Source: a virus
Strand: one strand, 5' to 3'
IMG/VR virus record: IMGVR_UViG_3300031718_000010
Location: 1-62,291 of that record
DNA length: 62,291 nt
Shown piece after piece: positions 2,780-61,655 of this stretch. Positions within the stretch are counted from its first letter, which is position 1; every line of letters starts with the position of its first letter. The notes under the pieces are model-generated. The model saw only the letters and a list, made by a program, of their open reading frames with translations. It had not been told where the DNA came from and did not search any database. A program made the position numbers and the translations under genes.

Positions 2780-3393
2780 TGCCCTCAGTTCAAGTTAAAG
2801 GTCAGCCAGTTCCAGCAGCTAATCAAGTTCAAGCTAAATTAATAGTCCCTGAACCTATTAAGGATGAACCAACTCCTTTACCAGCTACATTAGCTAAAGT
2901 TGAACCTGAACCAGCTATCCCCGTTGACCAGCTGCCAGTTAAATCACAAGATGAACTAGCAGCTATATCTATAGCCACCCAAACTATATCTCAACGTAAA
3001 AATATGACCCCATCAACCGAACCAGCTAAACCTGAACTAACCCATGAGGATAGGGTTAAACAGGCTAAGTTAGCTGCTGAAACTAGATGGAGTAAACGCT
3101 ATAACTGGGAAGATAGCCCTATTGAGGATGCCCTTGAATATCTAGCTGAGATTAGATTAGAAGTTGAACGTGGGGGGCTAGTGTTACAGCGTAGGGTAAG
3201 TGATATGAGAGTTGAAAAGGTTAAATGCTTCGGTTGTGATAATATTATAAACGTAAGCGAAGGTAGGTGGGCTACATATCGTACTCGTAATAATTATAAC
3301 ACTGGTATCCCTGAGACTCAATATGCCTGTTCAGCTGCTTGTGCGTTAAAGCTAAATAAGGAATTTGTCCATCCAACTAATAATAGAGGATAA
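2779..3393 (+). CDS. Hypothetical protein with C-terminal zinc site
   Basis: 204 residues. The N-terminal ~95 residues are P/E/V-rich and probably disordered. A basic helical block (about 98-115) and a helical region follow, then CFGC and C-x3-C (CSAAC), a probable zinc-binding domain. Such linker-plus-zinc proteins can bind nucleic acid, but I recognise no family. Confidence 0.55.
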   Translation: MPSVQVKGQPVPAANQVQAKLIVPEPIKDEPTPLPATLAKVEPEPAIPVDQLPVKSQDELAAISIATQTISQRKNMTPSTEPAKPELTHEDRVKQAKLAAETRWSKRYNWEDSPIEDALEYLAEIRLEVERGGLVLQRRVSDMRVEKVKCFGCDNIINVSEGRWATYRTRNNYNTGIPETQYACSAACALKLNKEFVHPTNNRG

Positions 3394-3408
3394 AAGGGGG
3401 ATAAGGTT

Positions 3409-3963
3409 ATGAAAGGTCATTTCGCGTATATATCAGGTTATCTAATCTGTGGAGGGTGTGGCTCATCCTTATGTCCATATAACCCTCAAACACCAATAGA
3501 TAATGAATATACCTATAGGGTATATTGTACCAACCCAAGTTGTGCTTGTTATCTTGAAGTATATGAGCCGACTGATAAAATCAAAGTAGGCCTAATCCCA
3601 ACTAAGTTAAGGGCACCTGACCCTAATGCTGTTGCTCAACAACAGCAACAGGCACAAGTTAGGTTAGCAGGTGAGATAGCCAATCAACGGACTGGGATAG
3701 GTGCAACTGGACATGATGACCGTATTGTGGCTGTTAATGTCCCAGGTACATTTCAAGTGACGGACCCAAGGGAATGGACACAGTTAACTAATATTGAGGC
3801 TCCTCCGCTCCCTAGGAATATAGCTGAACGGGAAGCACAAGTTATTAGGAATGCTCAACTCGTTACCGAGACTCCACGTTTATTAACTCGTGAGGAAGTT
3901 GAACAAAGGTATCCAACAAACCCTAACCAAGCTGAAACTCCTGGAGGCCTAATACGTCGCTAG
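3409..3963 (+). CDS. Zinc-ribbon hypothetical protein preceding terminase
   Basis: 184 residues starting with a strand-rich domain with CGGC, a second C and a later C-x4-C, consistent with a zinc ribbon. A Q/A-rich linker and an extended tail follow. The final codons contain CTGGAGG (3941-3947), which looks like the ribosome site for the terminase. Confidence 0.55.
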   Translation: MKGHFAYISGYLICGGCGSSLCPYNPQTPIDNEYTYRVYCTNPSCACYLEVYEPTDKIKVGLIPTKLRAPDPNAVAQQQQQAQVRLAGEIANQRTGIGATGHDDRIVAVNVPGTFQVTDPREWTQLTNIEAPPLPRNIAEREAQVIRNAQLVTETPRLLTREEVEQRYPTNPNQAETPGGLIRR

Positions 3964-40820: not shown

Positions 40821-41013
40821 ATATTTCAACTATCCTCATTATCGTTACTCTAACCTTTGGGGCTTTGGGACCCTTACTTTTATTAAGTGATGTTGCTGTT
40901 ATTTTAGCAGAAATACAAGCGCCTGTCAACTTGTTTATTGTTGGACCTAATAGATAGTGGCGTCCCTCACCATGAGAGATAACTTTTATATATTTCCCTT
41001 TCTCTAATATCAT
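40810..41013 (-). CDS. Small hypothetical protein between polymerase and helicase
   Basis: 67 residues, basic, mostly strands. Overlaps the polymerase gene by 4 nt at its start and the helicase gene at its end. No motif recognised; presumably a replication accessory. Confidence 0.55.
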   Translation of the reverse strand: MILEKGKYIKVISHGEGRHYLLGPTINKLTGACISAKITATSLNKSKGPKAPKVRVTIMRIVEIYDE

Positions 41014-43667
41014 ATATTAACCTCATTCATCCCATTCTTATTATCATCATCCATAGGAGCTAGATTACTCCCAACCTTAATCTCAAATCCAATATCTAAT
41101 CCCCCAAGCTCAGCAATAGGCTTATTAAACTGCCTAGCCATACACTCAATAGCACTATCCACAAGATGATTGGGCGTCTCGAATACGAGTGAGTCGTAAG
41201 TTGGTAGACGCATAAGGTTGCCAATATTAGGGATAACAGACAAGGCAAGGATGTCCTCACGTTGAATAGCCGCTCCATCACTCTGCGGCCTAAACGCAAT
41301 AGCCCGTTTCGCATCCCCTTCATGGTCTACCTCCCATTTATTAGCTCGTTTATTCATCTTATATATAGGGCCATAGAAATAATGTCTATATTGAAAGCTA
41401 TTATCTAGATATTTCTTACCCCAGACTTCTTCTAATGTAGCTTTGTGATAACTTCTAATAGCCTGTCCAGCTGGGCTACCGAACAGGATATCCTGAACCT
41501 TCTGAGCACTATACTCAGTAGGGAAATACTCTTCATATTCGTCATGCATACCATAGGGTGACAATAGATATGACGAACCATGTACACACCGTTTCCATCC
41601 TTCATAGTCATCACCTCCTCTTTTCTTAAACTGTTTAAGTAACTTTTTAAGTTCAGGTAATGGGGTATCTCTAATAACAGCCCAAGGGACTTCATCCCCT
41701 AATACAATCGAACCAAGATAACTATGAACCCCAGCCTTAGCTAGTTTGATATATTCAGGACTCTTAGCCCAATAACCAACTAATACAGCCTCTAATCCAC
41801 TTCTATCTATCTCAATTAGCTTACATCCTTCTTCTGCGATGATAGTCCTACGAAATAAACGAGCTAAATCATTTCGTTTGGGGATATTACCAAGATTTAC
41901 ATTTCTACTTGAGCTTCTCCACGTTGAGGGATGGAACCCATACTGGCTGTGTGCTCTGTCATTCTCATCTAAAGGCCAATTATATGTTGATAAGAACTTT
42001 AATTTCTGCTTGTAAGAAACGCAATGACGAAATATGGGATGCTTAGTTAACCTTTTGAGATACTTAGCTTCAGTTGATTCTCTATCATCACCCCTCGCTT
42101 TTGGGATTTTAACCTTTAACTCCCTCATTAGGTCTAATAAGTCAGGCCTGCTATTAGGATTAAACGGTTTAGTCCTAATCCAAATAGGCCTCATTACTTG
42201 TCCACCAGCTATAACTAATGACCCATCCTTAGTCTTAGCAGGGGCCTCACCAGATACTGTCTTAGTAGCTTCAATATATATACGTTTGGATATAGGGGTA
42301 TTAGGGCCAGCTATGGACTTTTTAAGTGGCTTGAATGATTGCTCTATTTTAATTAATTTAGCTGGCAATAACTCTTGAACCTTATTAAACTCAACCTTAG
42401 CATCAGTTTCCATTGCAGCCATAAATGGAACCCTAGCTTCCTTATCAACCTTTACACCCGCAACACCCATATTTACATAAATAGGGTCAACCTTAACGCA
42501 ATGACTCCAAAACCTATCCCATCTACCATCCTTAATTAACTGTGCCTTGGTCCCTTCATATACTCCCATCTGTACGGCGTTATCCATTCCATTATAAAAC
42601 GCAGGACGTTGGCTATGTAGATGCTTCCACGGTTTACCAGAATAGAAGAACGGGGCTGCGAAGTTGAGGGCTTTTGGTAGGTCTGAGTATAACCAGTGCC
42701 ACGCCCACATAGCGTCAACAATCTGAACATCCGGGTGTAACTCGAACCCATTACTCTTGAGCCTAGGTAAGTCGTAGTTTTTATTCCAGAAGGAGATAAC
42801 TCTAGCTTTACGGATAAGCTCTTTAGCTCGTCGGATGTAATCCCCATCAAACGGGAAAGATACGCCTTCCCACTGTCTGATAGAGAATCCCATACGTAGT
42901 ATTTGATAAGATGGGTCATCCTCACTTTCCTCCTCGTTCTTCCCTTGTAATGACCTAGGAGTTTCAATATCACACATTAGAAAGGGGATATCCCCTCTAC
43001 CTGGGAAGTTGATATAAGCTGGAGGGGGGTCCTCTATTATCTTAGTCTCAGTTGGCTTATATGAGCCATTAGCTATCTCAACAGCCCTAGCTAGAGAGAG
43101 GATGAAAGCAATAGTATACTTCCAATTCCCTTGTATTATAGATGACGGATGGAAGGTAGGGACCGCAGGTATTCCCTCGTAAACCGATGGGATGACATAG
43201 GCGTGATTGCCTTCAATTCCCTCGAAACCTGTGAGCCTCCGTAGGGCCACGTTTCCAAGCGCAATAAACACCTTAGGCACACGTTTGGCGACAAGGTTAT
43301 CCAGGTACGGCTTACACTGTTTCTGTGCATATTCGGCTTCTGGATATTTCCAAGGCTCATCATTCATCCCTAGTGCTGGAGGAGAGCACCAATAGCTATT
43401 AGTAACAGTAAACTCCTCCCTTGTCAATCCTCTTTTAGATAATATAGTATCAAGCCATCTGCCACTAGCACCACTAAAATTGCGATTAGCCAATATCTCC
43501 TCTTTCCAAGGAGAATCCCCAACGATACATATACCATTAGAGCCGCTACCATCAGGCTCAATCCTACGCCCACCAGTATGTTGGTAATGGCATTTATCAC
43601 AATAAGGCCCTTGGACTAGGGGATTACCTTGATTAAAGATAGGTAATTCAACTTTAACTTTAGCCAT
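41010..43667 (-). CDS. DNA polymerase, family A, with N-terminal uracil-DNA-glycosylase-like domain
   Basis: 885 residues in three parts. Residues ~20-200: a UDG superfamily fold (VGDSPWKEE for motif 1 and TFHPSSII for the HPS motif) with a Cys/His cluster at the front. About 228-400: 3'-5' exonuclease (CDIETPRS, NKNYDLPRL, DAMWAWHWLYSDLPKALNF). About 560-870: polymerase with motif A EIDRSGLEA (~615), motif B KRCVHGSSYLLSPYG (~690) and motif C YDSLVFE (~824, Y-D-S in place of the usual H-D-E). Main replicase. Confidence 0.88.
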   Translation of the reverse strand: MAKVKVELPIFNQGNPLVQGPYCDKCHYQHTGGRRIEPDGSGSNGICIVGDSPWKEEILANRNFSGASGRWLDTILSKRGLTREEFTVTNSYWCSPPALGMNDEPWKYPEAEYAQKQCKPYLDNLVAKRVPKVFIALGNVALRRLTGFEGIEGNHAYVIPSVYEGIPAVPTFHPSSIIQGNWKYTIAFILSLARAVEIANGSYKPTETKIIEDPPPAYINFPGRGDIPFLMCDIETPRSLQGKNEEESEDDPSYQILRMGFSIRQWEGVSFPFDGDYIRRAKELIRKARVISFWNKNYDLPRLKSNGFELHPDVQIVDAMWAWHWLYSDLPKALNFAAPFFYSGKPWKHLHSQRPAFYNGMDNAVQMGVYEGTKAQLIKDGRWDRFWSHCVKVDPIYVNMGVAGVKVDKEARVPFMAAMETDAKVEFNKVQELLPAKLIKIEQSFKPLKKSIAGPNTPISKRIYIEATKTVSGEAPAKTKDGSLVIAGGQVMRPIWIRTKPFNPNSRPDLLDLMRELKVKIPKARGDDRESTEAKYLKRLTKHPIFRHCVSYKQKLKFLSTYNWPLDENDRAHSQYGFHPSTWRSSSRNVNLGNIPKRNDLARLFRRTIIAEEGCKLIEIDRSGLEAVLVGYWAKSPEYIKLAKAGVHSYLGSIVLGDEVPWAVIRDTPLPELKKLLKQFKKRGGDDYEGWKRCVHGSSYLLSPYGMHDEYEEYFPTEYSAQKVQDILFGSPAGQAIRSYHKATLEEVWGKKYLDNSFQYRHYFYGPIYKMNKRANKWEVDHEGDAKRAIAFRPQSDGAAIQREDILALSVIPNIGNLMRLPTYDSLVFETPNHLVDSAIECMARQFNKPIAELGGLDIGFEIKVGSNLAPMDDDNKNGMNEVNI

Positions 43668-48990: not shown

Positions 48991-50367
48991 CTACTTAACC
49001 TCAGTTAAATTGGTGGGCTGGCTAGGATTTGAACCTAGGACCGTCGGCTTATGAGGCCGCTCCTCTGACCTCTGAGGTACCAGCCCTTCTAGTTCAGCTG
49101 GATGGTTGGGAACCCTTGCACGCCACTTAGATTCATCTGTAGGGTCGCTACTGCCCCAGCATATATCTGAATAGGTACAATTATAACAATCCCATCCAGT
49201 TGTCATTGGAAAACTATAATCCAAAGCCTCAAACGCCCCTTGTTTATTATTATCAAGGAAATAGCCATCAACATAAGCAGCCATATCTTGTCTAACCTTC
49301 TCAGTTATTAATGTTTGCCTTTTCCATCTCTCAACCTGATAGGCATCCCTAGTTATAGGTGGGAGCGAGAGGAAATAACTTTCCAGCGTTGATATATCAT
49401 TCCTGACAAGATAATCAATCCAGCCATAAACTCCACCAGGATAACAATCTCTAACGGCCCTTTTACGGAACCCTTTACCAAGTGTATGATTTCTATTACC
49501 AGGGCACTTAGCGCCATTACCCATAACGTGAGGAGCAGTACAAGTGTAATCCCACGATGTAGCATACTCTAATCCTCCCTGTTCACCTGGAAGGCTAACA
49601 TCAGTATTATCCTTGACCCAAGCATAGATAAGCATATTATTATACTGATAGTATCCAGACCCCTTAGGCCATTCGGTCTTATTCCCTTTAACTAGCCCTT
49701 CAATTATAACACCATCTACTTTCATGCCCAGACGGGATTCAACAGCAATAGCCTCAGTTAAGGTTTGCATATCCACTTGGAATGACTGTCTCCATTGCTC
49801 GTTTGGATTAGAGGTAGACTTGAAGTTAATAACCATAGCCATTCCACTAGCCTTGGACCTAGCTAATAGGTCTGTTCGGGTTAATAATCTAACCTCAGCC
49901 TTATCATTATCATCCCCAATCAACCATCCAATAGATTCCTCTTGCTCAATCCCTCCCTCGACAGGGATATAATTAGCTAATAACCTAGGATAACCAACAA
50001 GACTCCAGCCATATACCAGCCCTTTAACAAGGTCAATCTCTTGTAATAACTCGAATTGTAACCTCGCCATTAATTCAGGTTGGATATTAGAGTCAGATAC
50101 AATAGGGAAATATTCCTCATAATATTGTTTCGCTGCCAAATCAGCTGATTCCTTTGCTGATTTACCTAATATAATCCCCTCTATCCCTTCATGGATGAAT
50201 CTACCTGTTATGAATGGCCAATATGGATTGATATCCCTTACTTTAACTATCCCTATCCCTAGGAATCCATAGTTCCAATAGTATTTACGGGCACACTCTC
50301 CTGCACACTCAAGCCTTGAACGGTCAAAATGATACAATGGAAGGCCACCACTATTTTTGCTTATCAT
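48991..50367 (-). CDS. Cas4/RecB-like PD-(D/E)XK nuclease
   Basis: 458 residues. Starts SRLECAGECARKYYW (first Cys ligand), then GRFIHEGIEG, the active site RTDLLAR … MVINFKSTS (D and E/K of the PD-(D/E)XK motif), and a C-terminal Cys set (YNCTYSDIC with earlier CYPGG) that could hold an iron-sulfur cluster, as in Cas4/AddB exonucleases. Probably a recombination exonuclease. Its last ~30 codons run through a tRNA gene. Confidence 0.72.
   Translation of the reverse strand: MISKNSGGLPLYHFDRSRLECAGECARKYYWNYGFLGIGIVKVRDINPYWPFITGRFIHEGIEGIILGKSAKESADLAAKQYYEEYFPIVSDSNIQPELMARLQFELLQEIDLVKGLVYGWSLVGYPRLLANYIPVEGGIEQEESIGWLIGDDNDKAEVRLLTRTDLLARSKASGMAMVINFKSTSNPNEQWRQSFQVDMQTLTEAIAVESRLGMKVDGVIIEGLVKGNKTEWPKGSGYYQYNNMLIYAWVKDNTDVSLPGEQGGLEYATSWDYTCTAPHVMGNGAKCPGNRNHTLGKGFRKRAVRDCYPGGVYGWIDYLVRNDISTLESYFLSLPPITRDAYQVERWKRQTLITEKVRQDMAAYVDGYFLDNNKQGAFEALDYSFPMTTGWDCYNCTYSDICWGSSDPTDESKWRARVPNHPAELEGLVPQRSEERPHKPTVLGSNPSQPTNLTEVK
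49011..49086 (-). tRNA. tRNA-Met (CAT)
   Basis: 76 nt with encoded CCA. Acceptor GGGCTGG/CCAGCCC (7 bp), D-arm CCTC…GAGG, anticodon loop CTCATAA, T-arm CTAGG-TTCAAAT-CCTAG. The CAT anticodon could also be a lysidine-type tRNA-Ile. It lies entirely inside the 3' end of the nuclease gene on the same strand. Confidence 0.92.
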
Positions 50368-50746: not shown

Positions 50747-50835
50747 TGGTGCGGGAGGTGAGAGTCGAACTCACAAGGGGATTGCTCCCAACTGATTTTA
50801 AGTCAGTCTCCTCCGTCCAATCGGGATGCTCCCGC
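50747..50835 (-). tRNA. tRNA-Leu (TAA)
   Basis: 89 nt with encoded CCA, class II with a long variable arm. Acceptor GCGGGAG/CTCCCGC, anticodon stem ACTGA/TCAGT around CTTAAAA (anticodon TAA), T-arm GTGAG-TTCGACT-CTCAC. TTA is a natural codon to supply for an AT-rich genome. Starts 3 nt after the closing stem of the 199-nt structured RNA. Confidence 0.95.
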
Positions 50836-53090: not shown

Positions 53091-54500
53091 CTAATTACCT
53101 CCATTAGTATGCATACTATCAGCCATCTCAGCTAGTCTAACCTTTCCTAGCTGACTTAATCCATCTCCTCCACAAGCGGGACATATCCTTGTAACTGATA
53201 CCTTAGCTCCCGTTCTATACATAAGCTCAGTAACATACTTATCCCCTTCACATACCTCACATGTCTCCTCAGACAAGGTATCATCAGGGTCATCAGATAC
53301 TTGACTAGTTATAATCCCCTCACCTGAAGGAAATGTAAGTTGTTTAGGTTCATTACCCTTAGCTGACTCAGCTATCCTTTCCAACTCAGTTAATACTCTA
53401 GCCTCTGTACTGGTTATCCCTGGAGCCTCCCAAAACGATTGACACTGGCAGTTATCATCTAAGCACATCCCTGCTAGATTGCCCTTAGGGAAATTAGACT
53501 TTTGATAATCAGTCCTATAATGGTCCCCAAAGGTATGGCCACATTTACACATCTTACTATTCCTACCATCCTCCCCAGTTGAGCCAGTCGTCTGGGTCGT
53601 AGTCGTCGGTTGGCTTGTATCCGTTTGAGTAGGTTGAATACCCTTTGTATTGTCCTGGGGCGGGGTAGATACATTTAGATTGGGAGTATGAGCCTTCACC
53701 CTGCCCTGTTCTAACATACTCCCTTGCTGGAAAGCAAGTTCAAGCGCCTCAGTTGCCTTAGACTTAGGCATGACTCCATCAGTATAAACTGTAGCGTCAT
53801 ACTTAGCATACTCCCCACACTTTAGCTTAAGTCTGGAGACAGCTTTATACTCAGCCCTATTATTAATCACAATCTCAACAGGCCAGTTGCTATGTGCGAT
53901 ATCTGTCCCTGAGAAGAAAACACCCATTCCAACATGAGAATGAATAGCCCCGATAGTCCCAGCCTTAGGCGTCACACCTGTTGGGATATCAACATGCGCC
54001 CCACCTGCTGTCTGAGGGGGATGATAATAGCTTTCAATAAGATAAACTGGCTCATTTTTATCATCAACCGTCAGCTTACCCTTTAATAGAGCAATCCATT
54101 CAGTGTTAATATCCTTAGCTAGTTTAAGGAATGTCTGCCACATCAATACAGGAACAAGGACATAAGGAACCTTAGGATTAAGGGGACACTTATCAGTTAT
54201 TTCCTTATTCTCAGCACAGACGAATACATGCTCATCCTTAGGATTAACTACCCTAAAGCTATAGGGGTTACTGTTATCCTTATGACTATGGCCATTAGGT
54301 CTAGCTGTAACAGTTACACCTAATGTATGATTAGATGAGCGAGACTCACCTGTATAGCCATTAGCCCCATTAGCCTCCCTTCTCATCCTTTCAATCATAT
54401 CCATATCCCTAACGGTAGCCTTACCATTAGCGAATCTAAGTAAAGCAGCGTTATATTGATTATTAGCTTTACGTAACTTACGCTCACTAGACTTGCTCAT
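53091..54500 (-). CDS. JAMM/MPN-type metalloprotease (deubiquitinase-like) with zinc ribbon
   Basis: 469 residues from ATG 54500 (GGAGG 8 nt upstream); the ATG at 54506 is too close to it. The catalytic set is complete: E134 (NTEWIALLKG), H187 and H189 (HSHVGMGVFFSGTD), S197 and D200, i.e. E…H-x-H-x7-S-x2-D. Residues ~300-345 hold a Cys cluster (CKCG…CLDDNCQC) and ~420-460 a DnaJ-style CEVC…CPACGG. In such operons the enzyme matures or removes the ubiquitin-like tag. Overlaps the E1-like gene by 14 nt. Confidence 0.85.
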   Translation of the reverse strand: MSKSSERKLRKANNQYNAALLRFANGKATVRDMDMIERMRREANGANGYTGESRSSNHTLGVTVTARPNGHSHKDNSNPYSFRVVNPKDEHVFVCAENKEITDKCPLNPKVPYVLVPVLMWQTFLKLAKDINTEWIALLKGKLTVDDKNEPVYLIESYYHPPQTAGGAHVDIPTGVTPKAGTIGAIHSHVGMGVFFSGTDIAHSNWPVEIVINNRAEYKAVSRLKLKCGEYAKYDATVYTDGVMPKSKATEALELAFQQGSMLEQGRVKAHTPNLNVSTPPQDNTKGIQPTQTDTSQPTTTTQTTGSTGEDGRNSKMCKCGHTFGDHYRTDYQKSNFPKGNLAGMCLDDNCQCQSFWEAPGITSTEARVLTELERIAESAKGNEPKQLTFPSGEGIITSQVSDDPDDTLSEETCEVCEGDKYVTELMYRTGAKVSVTRICPACGGDGLSQLGKVRLAEMADSMHTNGGN

Positions 54501-55560
54501 CTTCATTTACCTCCTCTGTTTCTATATAATCATTCTCAGGAAGATTAAGGCTTCTCTCAAACTCAGGGTCAGTCTCGGCAATCTGGTCATGTAAGGTATT
54601 AGCATCTGAACTTAGATAAGACATATGCTCCTCTAATACCTTCTCTTCTTCCTCATTTAACGGTAATGGAGTAGCCTTAGCAATTAACTCCTCCGCTATA
54701 GGTTTAGCCTCAGCTAATCCTAGATTAGGGTAGCAATGCCTTAAATGTCTAATTAGATTAATCAAATTACCCTCAACTAATCTATGACACTTAGGATTAG
54801 GACAGCTAATCATAGGATATCTAGGCTTAACTTGATTGCCTTCAGCCATACTAGCTATCTTAAGGAAGCCGAATACCTCAGCTATATTATTATAAACTGG
54901 CCCCTTATCCCAGTCTACTAGATGGCTAACAGATGGAACGGTATTATGTAATATATAATAGCTAGCTACTGAACCCGCCATCATACAAGGGCCAACATGA
55001 ACAGGAACAGTTTGATAACCTGGATTATCCTCTAGCTCAGTTGAGAACTCAGGTGGGGCTGGGGATAATGTCCACCTCTCCCCATCTGCCCCTACTTCTA
55101 GATATTTAATCCCCCCATCCTTAGCCCACTGATAGCACATCTTCCTAGACTTAAGGCTATCAGTACAACAAACAAGCCACTCAACCCTATTTTCATTAGC
55201 TGAGCCAATAGATGGGTCAAACATCCCCCTAGCATTGATATTATCAGCCTTTGGCCTTAGTAATCTAAGCCATTTAGCTAATGCAACAGACTTTAACTCT
55301 CCAACACTAGACTCAGGTAAGGGAAAACGATTAAGATTATGAATAGATATAGTATCCCCATCATATATAGTTAAATCCTCAACCCCACCTAATGTAAGGG
55401 CTAAGGCTACCCAACATCCTACTCCACCTGCTCCTATTAACATGACAGATGGCTTAGATAATCCTAAACTAGATTGCCTCTCATATAATGGGTCTATCCC
55501 TTGTTCAACCTCAGCTATATTAGCTGTGTCAACATCAGGTAATACAAACTCATCAGGCAT
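54487..55560 (-). CDS. E1-like (ThiF/MoeB/UBA) adenylating enzyme
   Basis: 357 residues. Nucleotide-binding GAGGVG at 43-48 in a Rossmann fold, D67/D69 in IYDGDT, the arginine motif HNLNR (R78) and G-x2-K (K90), the E1 adenylation signature. VGPCMMAG holds a candidate catalytic Cys. A C-terminal CPNPKC…HLRHC finger and acidic tail follow. It should adenylate the C-terminus of a ubiquitin-like protein, encoded two genes upstream. Lies between the E2-like and JAMM genes with 13-bp and -14-bp spacing. Confidence 0.85.
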   Translation of the reverse strand: MPDEFVLPDVDTANIAEVEQGIDPLYERQSSLGLSKPSVMLIGAGGVGCWVALALTLGGVEDLTIYDGDTISIHNLNRFPLPESSVGELKSVALAKWLRLLRPKADNINARGMFDPSIGSANENRVEWLVCCTDSLKSRKMCYQWAKDGGIKYLEVGADGERWTLSPAPPEFSTELEDNPGYQTVPVHVGPCMMAGSVASYYILHNTVPSVSHLVDWDKGPVYNNIAEVFGFLKIASMAEGNQVKPRYPMISCPNPKCHRLVEGNLINLIRHLRHCYPNLGLAEAKPIAEELIAKATPLPLNEEEEKVLEEHMSYLSSDANTLHDQIAETDPEFERSLNLPENDYIETEEVNEDEQV

Positions 55561-55573
55561 GTTATCCCCTTAT

Positions 55574-57118
55574 CTATCCCCTAGCTGTAGCTGGGACATT
55601 AAACGTATAATTCAACTCCTCCGCATCACTTTCAATCCTATCCCAACTAATCCTAGGATTATTCGCAGGCCTACCCTCATTAGACCTAATTAGATATTGT
55701 TCAGGTGTGGTAGTAGCATCTGGATTAGGATAGCTAGCATTCCCAGTTATTAGGTTCTTAACCATATCTGGTAATTGTTCAGCATATAATGGATAGAAGA
55801 CATTAAGAGCATGAGATAACGGGCTATTAAAATTAATAACCCTCATCCCCCTGGATATCCCTCTTTCCACAGCTACTAGATTATCCATATTAATAACCCT
55901 AGCTGGCATACCTTGTAATTCCATGCATGTTCCAGTTGTAGTATTATGAACAGTATGCCAGATATCCCCTCTAACCTCATTAACAGCATATCTCCCATCA
56001 GTGGATAACCTAAGCCACATCTGCATTGGCCTACTACTATAATAAGCCTCATCCCTACCTGGGATACGAATAGGATTCCAATGAACCGTCCCCCTCCACC
56101 TATCAACCCTATATCTAATATCCTCTAGATATGTGCTAACCCTTAAGCCAATCCACCATCTCTCATCCATTAGCTTAATAGGCCTACCAGATTGTCTAGC
56201 CCACTCAGGCGCTTGATTAACCATGCTAGCCCTAAGTTGCTCAACTTCCCTTCTAATTGTCTCAACCCTCCCCTGTGCCTCACTAACCATAATCCTAGCA
56301 TCCGTTTGGGCCTTATCCAATTTAGCCTGTACCTCAATCTGAGCTATCCCTTTAGCCTTATCCCTAATATGCCTATAGATATTAGTATTATCCCTCTCAC
56401 CTGTTGGGACTAGCTTAAATGACTTCCCACCTACAAATATAGTAGCTGGTTGTGCCCTTAATAGAAAGCTATCATCCTGTGATTGAGGAACAGGTGCCTC
56501 ACTACTCGCTTCAGCTGTAGCCCTAACCCAGGTGAATGCCCATGCTTGGAGGGTGTCGTGTAATACCTGTGTTGGTAGCCCTTGCTCTAATGCTTGTTGG
56601 AGATAATAATCCGTCCTACGCCTACGGCTATGCCTACCACCTAATATCCTTTTCCACTCAGGAGGTAATAGGGATTTAATTACATTAATCTCAGGTAGGG
56701 CCATATTAGAGTTATTACGAGTAACCCTAATATACCATAAGCCATAATTATCCCTACGAACTATGACTTGGATAACATCAGTTGGTGGCTCAGGCTGCCT
56801 AAGCTCATTAGCTAATTGATTCGTATCAAGAGTAGCCATATTTCCTCTCCATTCCCCATTAATAAACTGATAAGCTGCAACCTGTCTATTAGCAGTTCCT
56901 TCTCTTATTATAACCCTATCTATATCATCTAGCCTTGTGACTTCCTCTATCCCTCTAGTCTCAGGGTTATACCTAAATTGTCTACGATTAGTCACTATAT
57001 TAAACTCTCTTGTATTAGGTAATGCAAATACCTGTAATGTATCTAACTCCTCAGGTAGCATCCCTCTAGAGATTAACATCTGCCTAATATTATCTACTGT
57101 AGTCATTCTCTCAAGCAT
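55574..57118 (-). CDS. Large protein with putative E2-like domain
   Basis: 514 residues (57106 is an alternative start). A strand-rich N-terminal region, then helices, a coiled coil at 255-300, and a C-terminal part (~320-450) with the strand LRLSTDGRYAVNEVRG followed by WHTVHNTTTGTCMEL: an H-x2-H…C arrangement (H388, H391, C398) like the 'HPHV…C' active site of prokaryotic E2-like proteins. By position, between Ubl and E1 genes, the E2 role is expected. Sequence evidence alone is moderate. Confidence 0.5.
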   Translation of the reverse strand: MLERMTTVDNIRQMLISRGMLPEELDTLQVFALPNTREFNIVTNRRQFRYNPETRGIEEVTRLDDIDRVIIREGTANRQVAAYQFINGEWRGNMATLDTNQLANELRQPEPPTDVIQVIVRRDNYGLWYIRVTRNNSNMALPEINVIKSLLPPEWKRILGGRHSRRRRTDYYLQQALEQGLPTQVLHDTLQAWAFTWVRATAEASSEAPVPQSQDDSFLLRAQPATIFVGGKSFKLVPTGERDNTNIYRHIRDKAKGIAQIEVQAKLDKAQTDARIMVSEAQGRVETIRREVEQLRASMVNQAPEWARQSGRPIKLMDERWWIGLRVSTYLEDIRYRVDRWRGTVHWNPIRIPGRDEAYYSSRPMQMWLRLSTDGRYAVNEVRGDIWHTVHNTTTGTCMELQGMPARVINMDNLVAVERGISRGMRVINFNSPLSHALNVFYPLYAEQLPDMVKNLITGNASYPNPDATTTPEQYLIRSNEGRPANNPRISWDRIESDAEELNYTFNVPATARG

Positions 57119-57445
57119 GATTATCTAACTCTCAAGGATTCTAGTTTAATTTTCGACCTTAGGGGCTACTACCACAGTGAAGTCCTAAGCCCTCACCGTT
57201 GTTAAACTAGAATCCATGACAATTAAATAATAAGGGGATACTTAGCCCATCTATCCGTACTGTTTCAGACTACAGACAGGTTACGAGATAAACAGTAATC
57301 ACCACTAATGCATCCCCTTACCTAATACTCTCTACTCTCTAATATTGATACCTGTCTTATATGACTAAGACGAGATAGCCCATAATAAAAGAGAGTAGAG
57401 TATCATCAAAGGAACCGTTGTAAACTCCCGTAAGTTATTGATAAC
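57119..57445 (-). ncRNA. Three tandem large hairpins in the Ubl-E2 gap
   Basis: This 327-bp gap holds no gene but three successive stem-loops. H1, 57136-57215: perfect 14-bp arms, inner CTTAGG/CCTAAG. H2, 57231-57320: 9-bp arms, inner ACTGTTT/AAACAGT. H3, 57330-57400: 11-bp arms, inner GTCTT/AAGAC. Each is 71-90 nt with an outer stem, an internal loop and an inner stem. They could be separate small RNAs processed from the operon mRNA or control elements for the E2-like gene. Confidence 0.65.
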
Positions 57446-57454
57446 TCAGGAGTT
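57423..57454 (-). other. Hairpin over the stop codon of the Ubl gene
   Basis: AACTCC…GGAGTT encloses GTTAT-TG-ATAAC, spanning the Ubl stop codon (57446-57448). No U-tract follows, so it is not a standard terminator; possibly an mRNA stabiliser or processing site. Confidence 0.45.
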
Positions 57455-57733
57455 GCCGCGGGTGTCCTTTGCGAACACTTCAAGGCTATGTGCCCCTGCC
57501 AACGAACCCGCAGCCTCAGTAGCCGTAACCGGGACACCGTTGACGCGAACAGAATATGACTTCAACCCAGCATCCCGCGCCAAAGCCATAGCCGCGTCAC
57601 CAATGGTTCCAGTTGCAGCAATCTGGCCAGTAACCTGACCATTGACGATTGTCTTAACCTGTGCCGGAGCCGCAGCCTGTCTAGGAGTAGCTGTCCGCCC
57701 AGCTGCCTTGCTAACTTTCTTCTTAGTTGCCAT
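57446..57733 (-). CDS. Ubiquitin-like beta-grasp protein
   Basis: 95 residues: a K/A/P-rich flexible N-terminus (1-25) then a compact beta-grasp pattern. Strands VKTIVN and QVTGQIAATG, helix TIGDAAMALARDAGL (43-57), strands YSVRVNGVPV and HSLEVFAKD. Ends TRGNS, so removal of two residues would expose a C-terminal glycine, the usual JAMM/E1 substrate form. GC-richer than its neighbours. It heads the E2-E1-JAMM genes, which makes it the likely conjugated modifier. Confidence 0.72.
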   Translation of the reverse strand: MATKKKVSKAAGRTATPRQAAAPAQVKTIVNGQVTGQIAATGTIGDAAMALARDAGLKSYSVRVNGVPVTATEAAGSLAGAHSLEVFAKDTRGNS

Positions 57734-58097: not shown

Positions 58098-58250
58098 TTA
58101 TAAACTGAACCATTTAACCCATAAAACCCTGTCAAATAGCCACTTAAGCAAGTTAACCATAATCCAGCCAACTCCATAAGCAATTAAACAGATAGCTATA
58201 ATGGATAGCCAAATAGCTAGTACTAATAGGAAGTTAACTAGAATGACCAT
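58098..58250 (-). CDS. Small membrane protein
   Basis: 50 residues from ATG 58250, which overlaps the end of the upstream gene. Two hydrophobic segments (VNFLLVLAIWLSIIAICLIA region) and an aromatic basic tail. An in-frame ATG at 58286 is less likely. Confidence 0.5.
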   Translation of the reverse strand: MVILVNFLLVLAIWLSIIAICLIAYGVGWIMVNLLKWLFDRVLWVKWFSL

Positions 58251-58446
58251 TAGGCACGCAAGCCTTTCTAAACCCATTCGCATCAAAGCTAAAGTTATCC
58301 CTACTATATGTATCCACTAATTCCTCTATGAAATTATCCCATATAGCCTTTTGTTTAGGATAATCCATAGCTAGCTTATCAACAGGATAGTGTTTACGAA
58401 TAGCGTTACTGACTTGTGTATATTGACGCCTAGAACTAATAGCCAT
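58234..58446 (-). CDS. Hypothetical helical protein
   Basis: 70 residues from ATG 58446 (GGAGG 10 nt upstream). Basic, helical (AIRKHYPVDKLAMDYPKQKA), no motif recognised. Overlaps the membrane-protein gene by 17 nt. Confidence 0.55.
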   Translation of the reverse strand: MAISSRRQYTQVSNAIRKHYPVDKLAMDYPKQKAIWDNFIEELVDTYSRDNFSFDANGFRKACVPNGHSS

Positions 58447-58509
58447 GATAATTAAACCTCCATTGAGCTTAATTAACTCCCAGCTTAGGTTATTGAGGAG
58501 GGGCACTGA

Positions 58510-59002: not shown

Positions 59003-59115
59003 TATATCCTCCATTGGAATCGTACATCCCCCTTATTATTTAGATTATACAACAAAGAAAGGTTACGAATCCATATTTAAAATAAGAATAGGCTAGGTTA
59101 TCCCTAGCCCATATC

Positions 59116-59361
59116 CTAATCCCCTTTACGCTGTAACTCAGCATCAACCTTACTAACTAACTCCTTCCCCATATCAGTTAGCGTAAGGATATTATTAACC
59201 TGCTTAAGCAATCTAGCCTTAATCAAGCCTTCAATTATCCCACTATAGCTGGAATGGCTAACTCCCTTACTCATCAATCCAGCATATACCACGCCGGATG
59301 GAGCAGAGCCAATATCCTTAACTGTAGCTAGGATAGCATAAACAACATTAGCTGATGTCAT
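59116..59361 (-). CDS. Winged-helix DNA-binding protein
   Basis: 81 residues from ATG 59361 (GGAGG 9 nt upstream). Helix-helix-turn-helix-wing order: VVYAILATVKD, VVYAGLMSKGVSHSSYSGII, LIKARLLKQVNNILTLTDMG. Likely a transcriptional regulator. Coupled to the ART-like gene. Confidence 0.6.
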   Translation of the reverse strand: MTSANVVYAILATVKDIGSAPSGVVYAGLMSKGVSHSSYSGIIEGLIKARLLKQVNNILTLTDMGKELVSKVDAELQRKGD

Positions 59362-59363
59362 AT

Positions 59364-59783
59364 TCAATTACCTCCATTGGGTATTGGTATCACCTCAATT
59401 ACCCTATCAGCAGGGATAGAGCAATAGCAATTATAGGCTGCCTTAGAGCCTATATAATCTGGGTCAGGCTTTAACTCAGCCATCTTATCCTCTGGTATAT
59501 CCACCTTAACTAGGACAGGGGTTATATCCCCATCTAACCTAGGCTGGCCATCCCTACGTTTCCATGAGAAATCAAATAGGTCATATACCTCACCTGGGTT
59601 AACTTGTGAATAGGCTGACCTAATCCAAGCAAAGCTAGTGGCCATATCTTTATCAGGGGTTAGGTATATCCCATGAGGAATAGGGATATCCTTAACACGG
59701 AATGACCTATCAGGCATAGGCTTAATACCCTCAACTAGGATATTATCAGCATAAGCCTTAATCGTCCCATGATACATAATCAT
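59364..59783 (-). CDS. ADP-ribosyltransferase-fold protein
   Basis: 139 residues, GGAGG 7 nt before the ATG. The front, MYHGTIKAYADNILVEGIKP, and GIYLTPDKDMATSFAW match the H-G and Y-L-T-x…A-x2-F-A motifs of ART-fold enzymes (H5, Y40), with strands PVLVKVDIP and CYCSIPADRVIEVIPI closing the fold. Such phage proteins modify host proteins with NAD. It precedes the ubiquitin-like genes, a pairing known from other Ub-type systems. Confidence 0.6.
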   Translation of the reverse strand: MIMYHGTIKAYADNILVEGIKPMPDRSFRVKDIPIPHGIYLTPDKDMATSFAWIRSAYSQVNPGEVYDLFDFSWKRRDGQPRLDGDITPVLVKVDIPEDKMAELKPDPDYIGSKAAYNCYCSIPADRVIEVIPIPNGGN

Positions 59784-59972
59784 AATCTACCCTCCATTGG
59801 GGTTAGGTTATTTAGGTTGCCATCACAATGCAGCAATAAAAGCGAATAGCAGCCCATTAGAGCAACAATCGGCCAGCGGTCACGTCATTGTGCCACCTAA
59901 CGCGATATAATTGCTCTAACGCGCTGCTATTAGCGCGTGATGCCATCTGACATGGCATCCGTGAATCAAATA
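59784..59972 (-). ncRNA. Structured non-coding gap with an 87-nt bipartite hairpin
   Basis: 59845-59931 folds as AATAGCAGC/GCTGCTATT (9 bp), a 3x3 internal loop and TTAGAGCAA/TTGCTCTAA (9 bp), with an inner GGT-CAC…GTG-ACC arm. Alternative stems ACGCGCT/AGCGCGT (59919-59938) and GATGCCAT/ATGGCATC (59939-59959) lie beside it. GCGATATAATT here recurs at 60734-60744, and GCGGTCAC and ATTGTGCCA recur near 61000-61104. No gene in these 189 bp. Confidence 0.65.
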
Positions 59973-60230
59973 TCACCAAATAGTGACAACGCCCGGCCAG
60001 ACATAAAGGCTATCAGCATTAGCCTCAGCCTCTAGTTTGGTAGCAGCCTCAGCTATCCAGCTAGGGCCATGATTGTAAATATGAGAATAATCAGTGGGAT
60101 AAGGTTGACTATCTCCTCTTTCCTCTGGCATTAGGAATGGTATCTCAATTGGCTTTAATGCAGGTGAGATAACCTTAGGCCACGGTTCATATTGCTTCAA
60201 ATTGCGAGTAATACCACAGCTATTATCCAT
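59973..60230 (-). CDS. Hypothetical protein
   Basis: About 85 residues from ATG 60230 (GGAG 8 nt upstream); an ATG 12 nt further up is possible. P/E/Y-rich, ending in a hydrophobic strand. No family recognised. Lies between two structured gaps. Confidence 0.5.
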   Translation of the reverse strand: MDNSCGITRNLKQYEPWPKVISPALKPIEIPFLMPEERGDSQPYPTDYSHIYNHGPSWIAEAATKLEAEANADSLYVWPGVVTIW

Positions 60231-60392
60231 AGTTGTCTCCATTGGACTAACTTGTTTGGGATAAGGGTTTATTCCCCCACTTAGGTAGCTTACTGCTATG
60301 CAGGCTATTCGTGCTGCACTCACGATATCTCTAAATGAGAGAATAAACCCATTGAATAGGCCCTTTAGTATCCTCAGGGCCTATCTATTGGC
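60231..60392 (-). ncRNA. Structured gap with an 86-nt hairpin and a second hairpin
   Basis: 60265-60350: perfect 10-bp arms GGGTTTATTC/GAATAAACCC with inner TGCAG/CTGCA, the same plan as the hair-pins at 57136-57400. 60356-60384: ATAGGCCCT/AGGGCCTAT, 9 bp with an 11-nt loop, just past the stop of the next upstream gene and terminator-like. No gene here. Confidence 0.6.
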
Positions 60393-60611: not shown

Positions 60612-61377
60612 TTCAGCGATAGTCGGCTCATGCTTGCCATTGGCTGGGCTAGCCTTAGTGGTATCAACAGCCTTAAGCTAGACAAGTTTAACCTATCAGC
60701 AATCTATGTTAGGATGTAACATAGAACATTAATGCGATATAATTACACACTCACTATGACGGTGACATGCGATAGATGTTGCATAAACAACATCTGTTGG
60801 TTATCTCTATCCAAAGGCCCAACGTGACTGACGCTAGGATATGCCGCGTTATAACTGTTATAAACTCAACGCTCACCTTGCTAGCTACCGTCAGCGCCCA
60901 CTCATAGAGGCTAACTAACATTCAATCGCTCATTGCCCTCATCGGCACCTAATCCCCCGGTCGCTGTTCTATCCATTCCCACCGTATGCAGACTATCTTC
61001 GCGGTCACAATGGCGTCTATCAGGGGAGAACATCACGATTGCTGTTGGCTTCCAGCGAGTGACTGACTCGCCGCTGCCGTGCTACTGAACTGCGATTGTG
61101 CCATGTAGCAAACCGCATGCCATGTGTCCCGGCGACATAACTCGTTTGTTATCAATCGTACTAGTAATACCACATGACAATAAATGTCTGGTACTAGCGA
61201 CACAATCGGTCATATTCGTTGCAAACAAATGGTCCTGGTACGACAAAAATTGTCAGCGAACGAAAAACGAATATCCATTCCTTAGCTGGAAACCCTCCTT
61301 AGTCAGGACCCAGTTACGAAGGTCAAGCCACCCCTGGCCCATCTAACCCTCCAGGGAGGGGTCCCACGCACTGACTA
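60612..61377 (-). ncRNA. Long densely folded non-coding region (possible large ornate RNA)
   Basis: No gene in ~700 bp, but consecutive stems. They are AGATGTTG/CAACATCT (60774-60795), CTGACG-CTAG/CTAGC-CGTCAG (60828-60894, with inner GCGTT/AACGC), GCGAGT/ACTCGC (61055-61071), TGCTAC/GTAGCA (61080-61110), CTAGT…ACTAG (61161-61197), ATATTCGTT/AACGAATAT (61212-61274, inner GACAA/TTGTC) and AGTCAG-GACCC/GGGTC-CTGACT (61301-61376, inner CCCTGG/CCAGGG). GC content is above the genome's. A weak minus-strand promoter just above 61377 would start an RNA at the last stem. Confidence 0.55.
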
Positions 61378-61655
61378 GTATATAGAATCCTTACCAAAAC
61401 ACAGTAAGCACCCTTATTGAATGGGTCCTCTTATTATCTAACTATAGTTATAATGATGGTTACGGATAAATACCTAAGTATAATAATAAAGAGAGTATGA
61501 TAAATAATATATTTGTTATAGTACCATTACTAGTAATCATGCTAAGTTTATCAAGGTTTATCAAGCATAGCGGATATATATTCACTATATCGGATATTAT
61601 TTATAGCATATAAAATAGTATTGACATCTAACCTGCTTATTGATATTATATATCA
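61378..61655 (+). promoter_or_regulatory. Control region of the gene at 61656, with direct repeats and palindrome
   Basis: Contains the 14-bp motif shared with 37790-37803 (61456-61469), a perfect palindrome ATTACTAGTAAT (61526-61537), tandem GTTTATCAAG repeats (61546-61565) and a CGGATAT direct repeat (61571-61577, 61591-61597). Then TTGACA (61621-61626), 17 nt and TATTAT (61644-61649). The ATG follows the -10 by 7 nt, so the mRNA should be leaderless. Confidence 0.65.

Follow-up and report, generated by a model that had tools for sequence, protein, structure and literature searches.

A hairpin-filled gap between the ubiquitin-like and E2-like genes of a phage may set the tag apart from its enzymes

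In a phage genome, the gene for a ubiquitin-like protein (Ubl) and the E2-like gene that follows it on the minus strand are separated by a 327-nt gap, the RNA of which folds almost end to end as large hairpins. In the sole independent relative that we found (IMGVR_UViG_3300016270_000031, here L004; 22,207 bp) the genes have the order Ubl, gap, E2, E1, JAB, and the gap, which comprises 306 nt and lies at the same position, is structured in a similar way, with no detectable sequence similarity. We favour the interpretation that this gap forms an RNA domain between cistrons of a polycistronic phage mRNA and uncouples Ubl from the E2-E1-JAB set, with Ubl being in excess, a reading in which we place about as much belief as doubt. 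Differential control of Ubl versus E2 was among the roles proposed in the first-pass annotation of this DNA, and it is the one we retain as favoured.

The window, i.e. the whole stretch of DNA analysed (62,291 bases), is a virus record with terminase and other phage genes, and its DNA polymerase A domain (41010-43667, minus strand) has a uracil-DNA glycosylase domain fused to its N-terminal side. The Ubl gene (57446..57733, minus strand; 95 aa, ubiquitin-like fold) is the cistron upstream of the gap. The gap is followed on the same strand by the E2-like gene (55574..57118; 514 aa), the E1-like (ThiF) gene (54487..55560; Pfam ThiF, 2e-22), located 13 nt downstream of E2, and the gene for a JAB-like peptidase (53091..54506), which overlaps the E1 gene. 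For the AlphaFold model of Ubl (mean pLDDT 77.7) the top PDB matches include SUMO and the ubiquitin of the archaeon Caldiarchaeum (E about 6e-3 to 9e-3, probability about 1), and the E1-like protein matches E1, MoeB and Cap2 in the PDB. The Prok-JAB match of the peptidase has an E value of 9.2e-4 in the window, under the curated Pfam cut-off, and of 3.5e-6 in the relative, above the cut-off. By sequence the E2-like protein has neither a Pfam nor a PDB match, and its AlphaFold model from a two-row alignment is unusable (mean pLDDT 38). The E2-like proteins of window and relative have a Cys motif in common, TG.C (C398, with H391), which we take to resemble that of UBC proteins. Thus, of the earlier statement that the hairpins lie between Ubl and E2-like genes, the Ubl part is borne out by the AlphaFold matches, whereas the E2 label of the 514-aa protein, assigned from position and Cys motif with neither a profile nor a model to confirm it, is unproven. 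At its C-terminus the Ubl of the window ends in ...TRGNS (57446-57460, minus strand) and that of the relative in ...TRG; the two extra residues might be trimmed by the JAB peptidase.

From gene order and strand we infer a single mRNA for Ubl-E2-E1-JAB. Within this unit E2, E1 and JAB follow one another with a spacing of 13 nt or with overlaps, in the window and in the relative, so that their translation is probably coupled, and as these three are tightly packed in both phages it is Ubl alone that is set apart.

On the mRNA the minimum free energy (MFE) structure of the gap starts with a small fold right after the Ubl stop codon (57402..57445, minus strand), which is predicted with low confidence, its details differing between MFE and centroid structure. 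Hairpins W3 (57330..57400, minus strand), W2 (about 57231..57320, minus strand) and W1 (57122..57229, minus strand) follow in this order, the domains being 1, 8 and 0 nt apart, and base pairing involves 71% of the nucleotides in this folded stretch. W3 combines an 11-bp perfect outer arm with an inner stem and W2 a 9-bp perfect arm with a long inner stem. W1 is built on a 14-bp perfect core arm (57136-57149/57202-57215) and has a lower stem that ends beside the E2 ATG (57118); when extended its arms comprise 30 nt each (57120-57149/57202-57231) and are 87% complementary. The lower stem contains GAGAG (57133-57129, minus strand), a weak Shine-Dalgarno-like sequence of E2, in paired form. The whole gap thus consists of four near-abutting domains, the last of which includes the E2 ribosome-binding region. 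The three perfect arms of 14, 9 and 11 bp had been described before (57136-57215, 57231-57320, 57330-57400) and are exact to the base, but they turn out to be part of a larger structure that also comprises the fold at the Ubl stop and the extension of W1 to the E2 start.

An arrangement of this kind is far beyond chance, as had been claimed. In 2000 dinucleotide-preserving shuffles of the 327-nt gap at least one perfect arm was found 236 times and at least two were found 7 times, and three such hairpins never occurred. The comparison of folding energies with shuffles, which had been set beforehand, gave the same picture: the fold of 57120-57415 has -108.9 kcal/mol (z -7.83) on the minus strand, which is the coding strand here, and -79 kcal/mol (z -5.11) on the plus strand, and none of 200 shuffles equalled either value. 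The first-pass annotation had also held that the structure, not the sequence, is repeated, and this view is strengthened by the relative, whose gap is of unrelated sequence and equally structured. The arms are unrelated to each other, and W2 and W3 have only short strings in common (TATCTCGT, ATGGGCTA), which occur elsewhere in the window, too. ATGGGCT, seen by eye in four of eight hairpin units (five from the window, three from the relative), was rejected as a shared core as the window contains 12 copies of it, spread over both strands.

Between window and relative the proteins are 45% (Ubl) and 37% (E2) identical by BLASTP and 50% (E1) and 44% (JAB) in two-row alignments, and the longest word common to both gaps has 7 nt (shuffle mean 8.4). 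The gap of the relative nevertheless has a folding energy of -119.1 kcal/mol and, with z -7.74, is the lowest among 11 gaps (-6.73 for a slightly longer stretch, -6.52 with other shuffles), the genic controls of this contig having a mean z of -0.62 (n=18). In this gap two large hairpins accompany the one located right at the Ubl stop (L004 4409-4427), i.e. in both phages a fold at the Ubl stop is followed by large abutting hairpins and then by the E2 start. L015, a contig from another metagenome, is 100% identical to L004 over 7372 bp and represents the same virus. Both extra contigs are thus one virus, the gap of which cannot be aligned with that of the window. Scans of viral sequences, with Ubl, E2, E1 and JAB as well as fragments and two-row alignments as queries, returned this one virus only, and a genome scan with a JAB fragment gave no matches. 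L012 and L013, genome-scan matches to pieces of E1, were dropped as they are located in a bacterial gene, presumably Mfd-like. A DNA search of 50,697 phage records revealed no near record, and searches with the E2 or JAB protein revealed no near phage record either; the E1 protein matched distant ThiF/MoeB-like genes only.

Strong folding is not a general habit of the phage. With a z of -6.88 the Ubl/E2 gap is the lowest among 17 gaps of the window. The z values of the 17 gaps and of the 11 gaps of the relative are based on a mechanical gene call, on gaps of 60-900 nt between same-strand genes only and on 60 shuffles each, and in the window the genes were limited by us to the dominant strand of each region. 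Only three other gaps are below -3, namely 59784-59972 (z -5.76), 59015-59115 (z -5.72), which contains a terminator-like hairpin with a U tail, and 60324-60392 (z -3.25). Genic controls in the window have a mean z of -0.57 and a minimum of -3.22 (n=41). The strong hairpins of the window are thus clustered at 57-60.4 kb. Gap 59784-59972 contains hairpin W4 (59842..59934, minus strand), intergenic and upstream of the Ubl/E2 gap on the same strand, and hairpin W5 (60265..60350, minus strand) overlaps the GTG-started ORF 59973-60323, for which an SD-like sequence suggests the ATG at 60230 as the likelier start. The relative has a similar element, hairpin L1 (L004 3345-3433, plus strand), with 25-nt arms like window 59842-59934, which is situated in a different gap (3324-3440, z -6.01). 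The genes that precede W4, W5 and L1 are not Ubl genes.

Two further proteins are encoded in the same region on the minus strand. One is a small winged-helix protein (59116-59367; HTH_45 E 3.8e-4, under cut-off), the gene of which precedes the terminator-like hairpin 59112-59088, the other (59364-59783; MIMYHGT...GIYLTPD) matches ART-PolyVal in Pfam weakly (E 0.22), and its motif is presumably ADP-ribosyltransferase-like. Both phages also contain an ORF-poor block of 0.8-0.9 kb (window about 60650-61600, L004 370-1130) upstream of the same small gene, possibly an origin or regulatory region. The window block (about 60.65-61.6 kb), considered as a potential element of the same type, shows no strong folding, its lowest sense z being -3.2. 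The two blocks lack blastn similarity, and short strings common to them, e.g. ACTAGTAC, can be seen by eye.

Several hairpins are thus grouped at 57-60.4 kb, and both strands beat their shuffles, as is the case with any inverted repeat, which would fit DNA-level inverted repeats that have no role as RNA, i.e. remains of mobile elements or signals for recombination or replication. This explanation is very improbable in our view. In all eight hairpin units the fold of the sense strand is the more stable of the two, and G-U pairs account for 43 of 289 pairs in the sense folds versus 11 of 227 in the antisense folds; L2, L3 and all unit edges were chosen by us from folds and repeats, so that the eight units do not constitute a blind sample. 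For the gaps, where z corrects for composition, sense and antisense values are -6.88 versus -4.68 (window) and -7.74 versus -3.63 (relative). Moreover, on the transcribed strand the hairpins are without exception located between genes, the genome has no second copy of them and the 50,697 phage records contain no match. As the bias towards the sense strand in energy and G-U pairs agrees with the composition-corrected z values, the data favour selection acting on RNA. Computation establishes the structure and its RNA-strand preference, a place and general architecture that the two phages have in common without the sequence, and poor accessibility of the E2 start in the window.

The gap yields no known element. 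ARAGORN and the Rfam tRNA model recognise no tRNA in it (the tRNAs of the window are located at 49011-49086 and 50747-50835 only), and of the earlier description of the hairpins as tRNA-sized just the length applies. The covariance models of Rfam 15 have no match in 57100-57450 up to E 5 and none in L004 at gathering score. Neither gap contains a terminator-like site, the nearest one upstream on the minus strand being 59112-59088, and no minus-strand ORF of at least 20 aa lies wholly within the gap of the window. Two short sense ORFs (22 and 35 aa) wholly within the gap of the relative were judged to be due to chance.

The units comprise 71-110 nt, are arranged in tandem and nearly abut, which might suggest that they, together with W4, W5 and L1, are cut from the mRNA as discrete small RNAs of 70-110 nt that act in trans, e.g. 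as regulators, protein-binding RNAs or decoys. In W1 the loop UUAGG may form a pseudoknot with CCUAA further downstream, a result equalled in 1 of 500 permutations. Nevertheless, a notable pseudoknot is present in only one of the eight units and hence is not general, and there is neither a tRNA in the gap nor an Rfam match, nor a core or conserved sequence shared within or between the genomes. We therefore consider small RNAs improbable, and the tandem small RNAs and decoys of the first-pass annotation gain no specific support. A more specific version, in which W1-W5 and L1-L3 would form one family of helix-rich RNAs of 70-110 nt that keep their shape instead of their sequence and act in trans, e.g. 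as ligands of the Ubl machinery or as decoys against a host defence that senses RNA, appears decidedly improbable to us.

The region upstream of the E2 start of the window, taken as the first ATG (57118), has a mean unpaired probability of 0.10-0.14, the lowest among 18 positions, one of which (gene 58234-58506) is not a real start codon. In the relative the corresponding region is not unusual (mean accessibility 0.40-0.42), its AAGGAGG itself being paired. In the MFE structure of the relative CCUCCUUAG, located just after the Ubl stop and the first hairpin, forms a helix with CUAAGGAGG, the Shine-Dalgarno sequence of E2, and this pairing spans about 270 nt and closes the entire domain. Pairing of the ribosome-binding region in the window and of the Shine-Dalgarno sequence in the relative, along with promoter-like matches in both gaps, could also point to an internal promoter or leader of E2 with switch-like control of E2 translation as the main role. 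However, these matches are weak (9/12), promoter-like matches in the region of the window do not exceed shuffles (24 found, 27.0 expected) and a conserved ligand-binding core is lacking, which makes this explanation very unlikely. In the relative a complete sigma-70 match (12/12; TTGACA, 17 nt, TATAAT; L004 3867-3895, plus strand) ends 235 nt upstream of the Ubl start.

In the favoured mechanism, the hairpins right after the Ubl stop would block 3'-5' decay of the Ubl message, an endonuclease, e.g. host RNase III, might in addition cut within or after the hairpins, and the last hairpin would bury the E2 ribosome-binding region, so that less of the enzyme set would be made per transcript. As a result Ubl would be in excess over E2, E1 and JAB. 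Decay protection, cutting and protein ratio are what we infer; the gap itself is the most structured one in both phages, has the same order of elements and no common sequence, and this argues for uncoupling, as do the sense-strand folding bias with its G-U pairs, the E2 start with the lowest accessibility in the window together with the paired Shine-Dalgarno sequence in the relative, the position of Ubl apart from the packed E2-E1-JAB cistrons with no terminator in the gaps, and the sigma-70 match upstream of Ubl in the relative. Differential-decay hairpins being common in E. coli operons argues in the same direction. Among E. coli operons with differential decay, upstream cistrons that are stabilised commonly end in a hairpin lacking a U tract: in 26 of 34 such gene pairs the 3' end of the upstream cistron lies just past a stable hairpin with no U tract (PMC5927463). 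In both phages, too, the hairpins between the cistrons are stable beyond shuffle expectation and, having no U tract, are not terminators. Against uncoupling speak that three or four hairpins exceed what is needed to block an exonuclease, that the mean accessibility of the E2 start is ordinary in the relative, that similar hairpins follow genes other than Ubl and that the weak promoter-like matches in the gaps (9/12) allow for a separate E2 promoter.

Alternatively, the gaps might be RNase III sites like those of T7, i.e. long helices that are cut to split the polycistronic message, with effects on stability and translation being secondary. Both genomes have large sense-strand helices between the cistrons, and long double helices are thus present on the transcribed strand. 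Five T7 control stretches, at positions that we assume to hold RNase III sites, show a similar strand preference, with z from -1.4 to -5.0 in sense and from -0.9 to +0.9 in antisense direction. Yet, besides being shorter, these stretches fold less strongly per nucleotide (-0.24 to -0.33 kcal versus -0.35 and -0.39 here), T7 has one site per gap and three abutting hairpins would be unnecessary for cutting. In T7, cutting of the early mRNA at five sites yields mono- and dicistronic mRNAs (PMC4858673). Taking both sides into account we regard this alternative as rather unlikely, but a cut by RNase III within the helices would be compatible with decay protection, and the two may belong to one process.

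The uncoupling that we favour resembles several known systems. The differential-decay hairpins of bacterial malE-malF, puf and menBCE (PMC5927463) are likewise stable, intercistronic and devoid of a U tract, and the upstream cistron is plausibly needed in larger amount, whereas the phage Ubl gap is filled by three to four nearly abutting hairpins that include the next ribosome-binding region. RNase III sites of T7 early mRNA (PMC4858673) are likewise helices on the sense strand that separate cistrons of a polycistronic phage mRNA, but in T7 each gap has a single helix, shorter and weaker than the several helices of the Ubl gap, where cutting is a possibility. Translational operators and leaders that mask the ribosome-binding site, e.g. 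of T4 gene 43 (PMC3014915), also place a hairpin over or beside this region, but for the Ubl gap no binding protein is known and the pairing partner differs between the two phages. Finally, Ubl-E2-E1-JAB operons of prokaryotes (PMC1779556, table, row 6d) bring together the same four gene types; the part of that paper considered mentions no structured RNA spacer, and the phage E2-like protein differs in having no Pfam family.

Thus, we favour a mechanism of a known kind, and what sets the present case apart is an array of large, nearly abutting hairpins that fills the gap, extends over the next ribosome-binding region and keeps its shape without its sequence at one and the same junction of a phage Ubl operon. 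In open-licence PMC papers we found neither a report of such an array nor an account of how a phage controls the ratio of Ubl to enzymes. As a rule, a ubiquitin-type system is expected to require its tag in large excess over the enzymes. A spacer that is conserved in shape rather than in sequence would, if true, be a simple and testable device to set protein ratios in a phage operon, and it would represent a selected RNA structure that is invisible to sequence searches.
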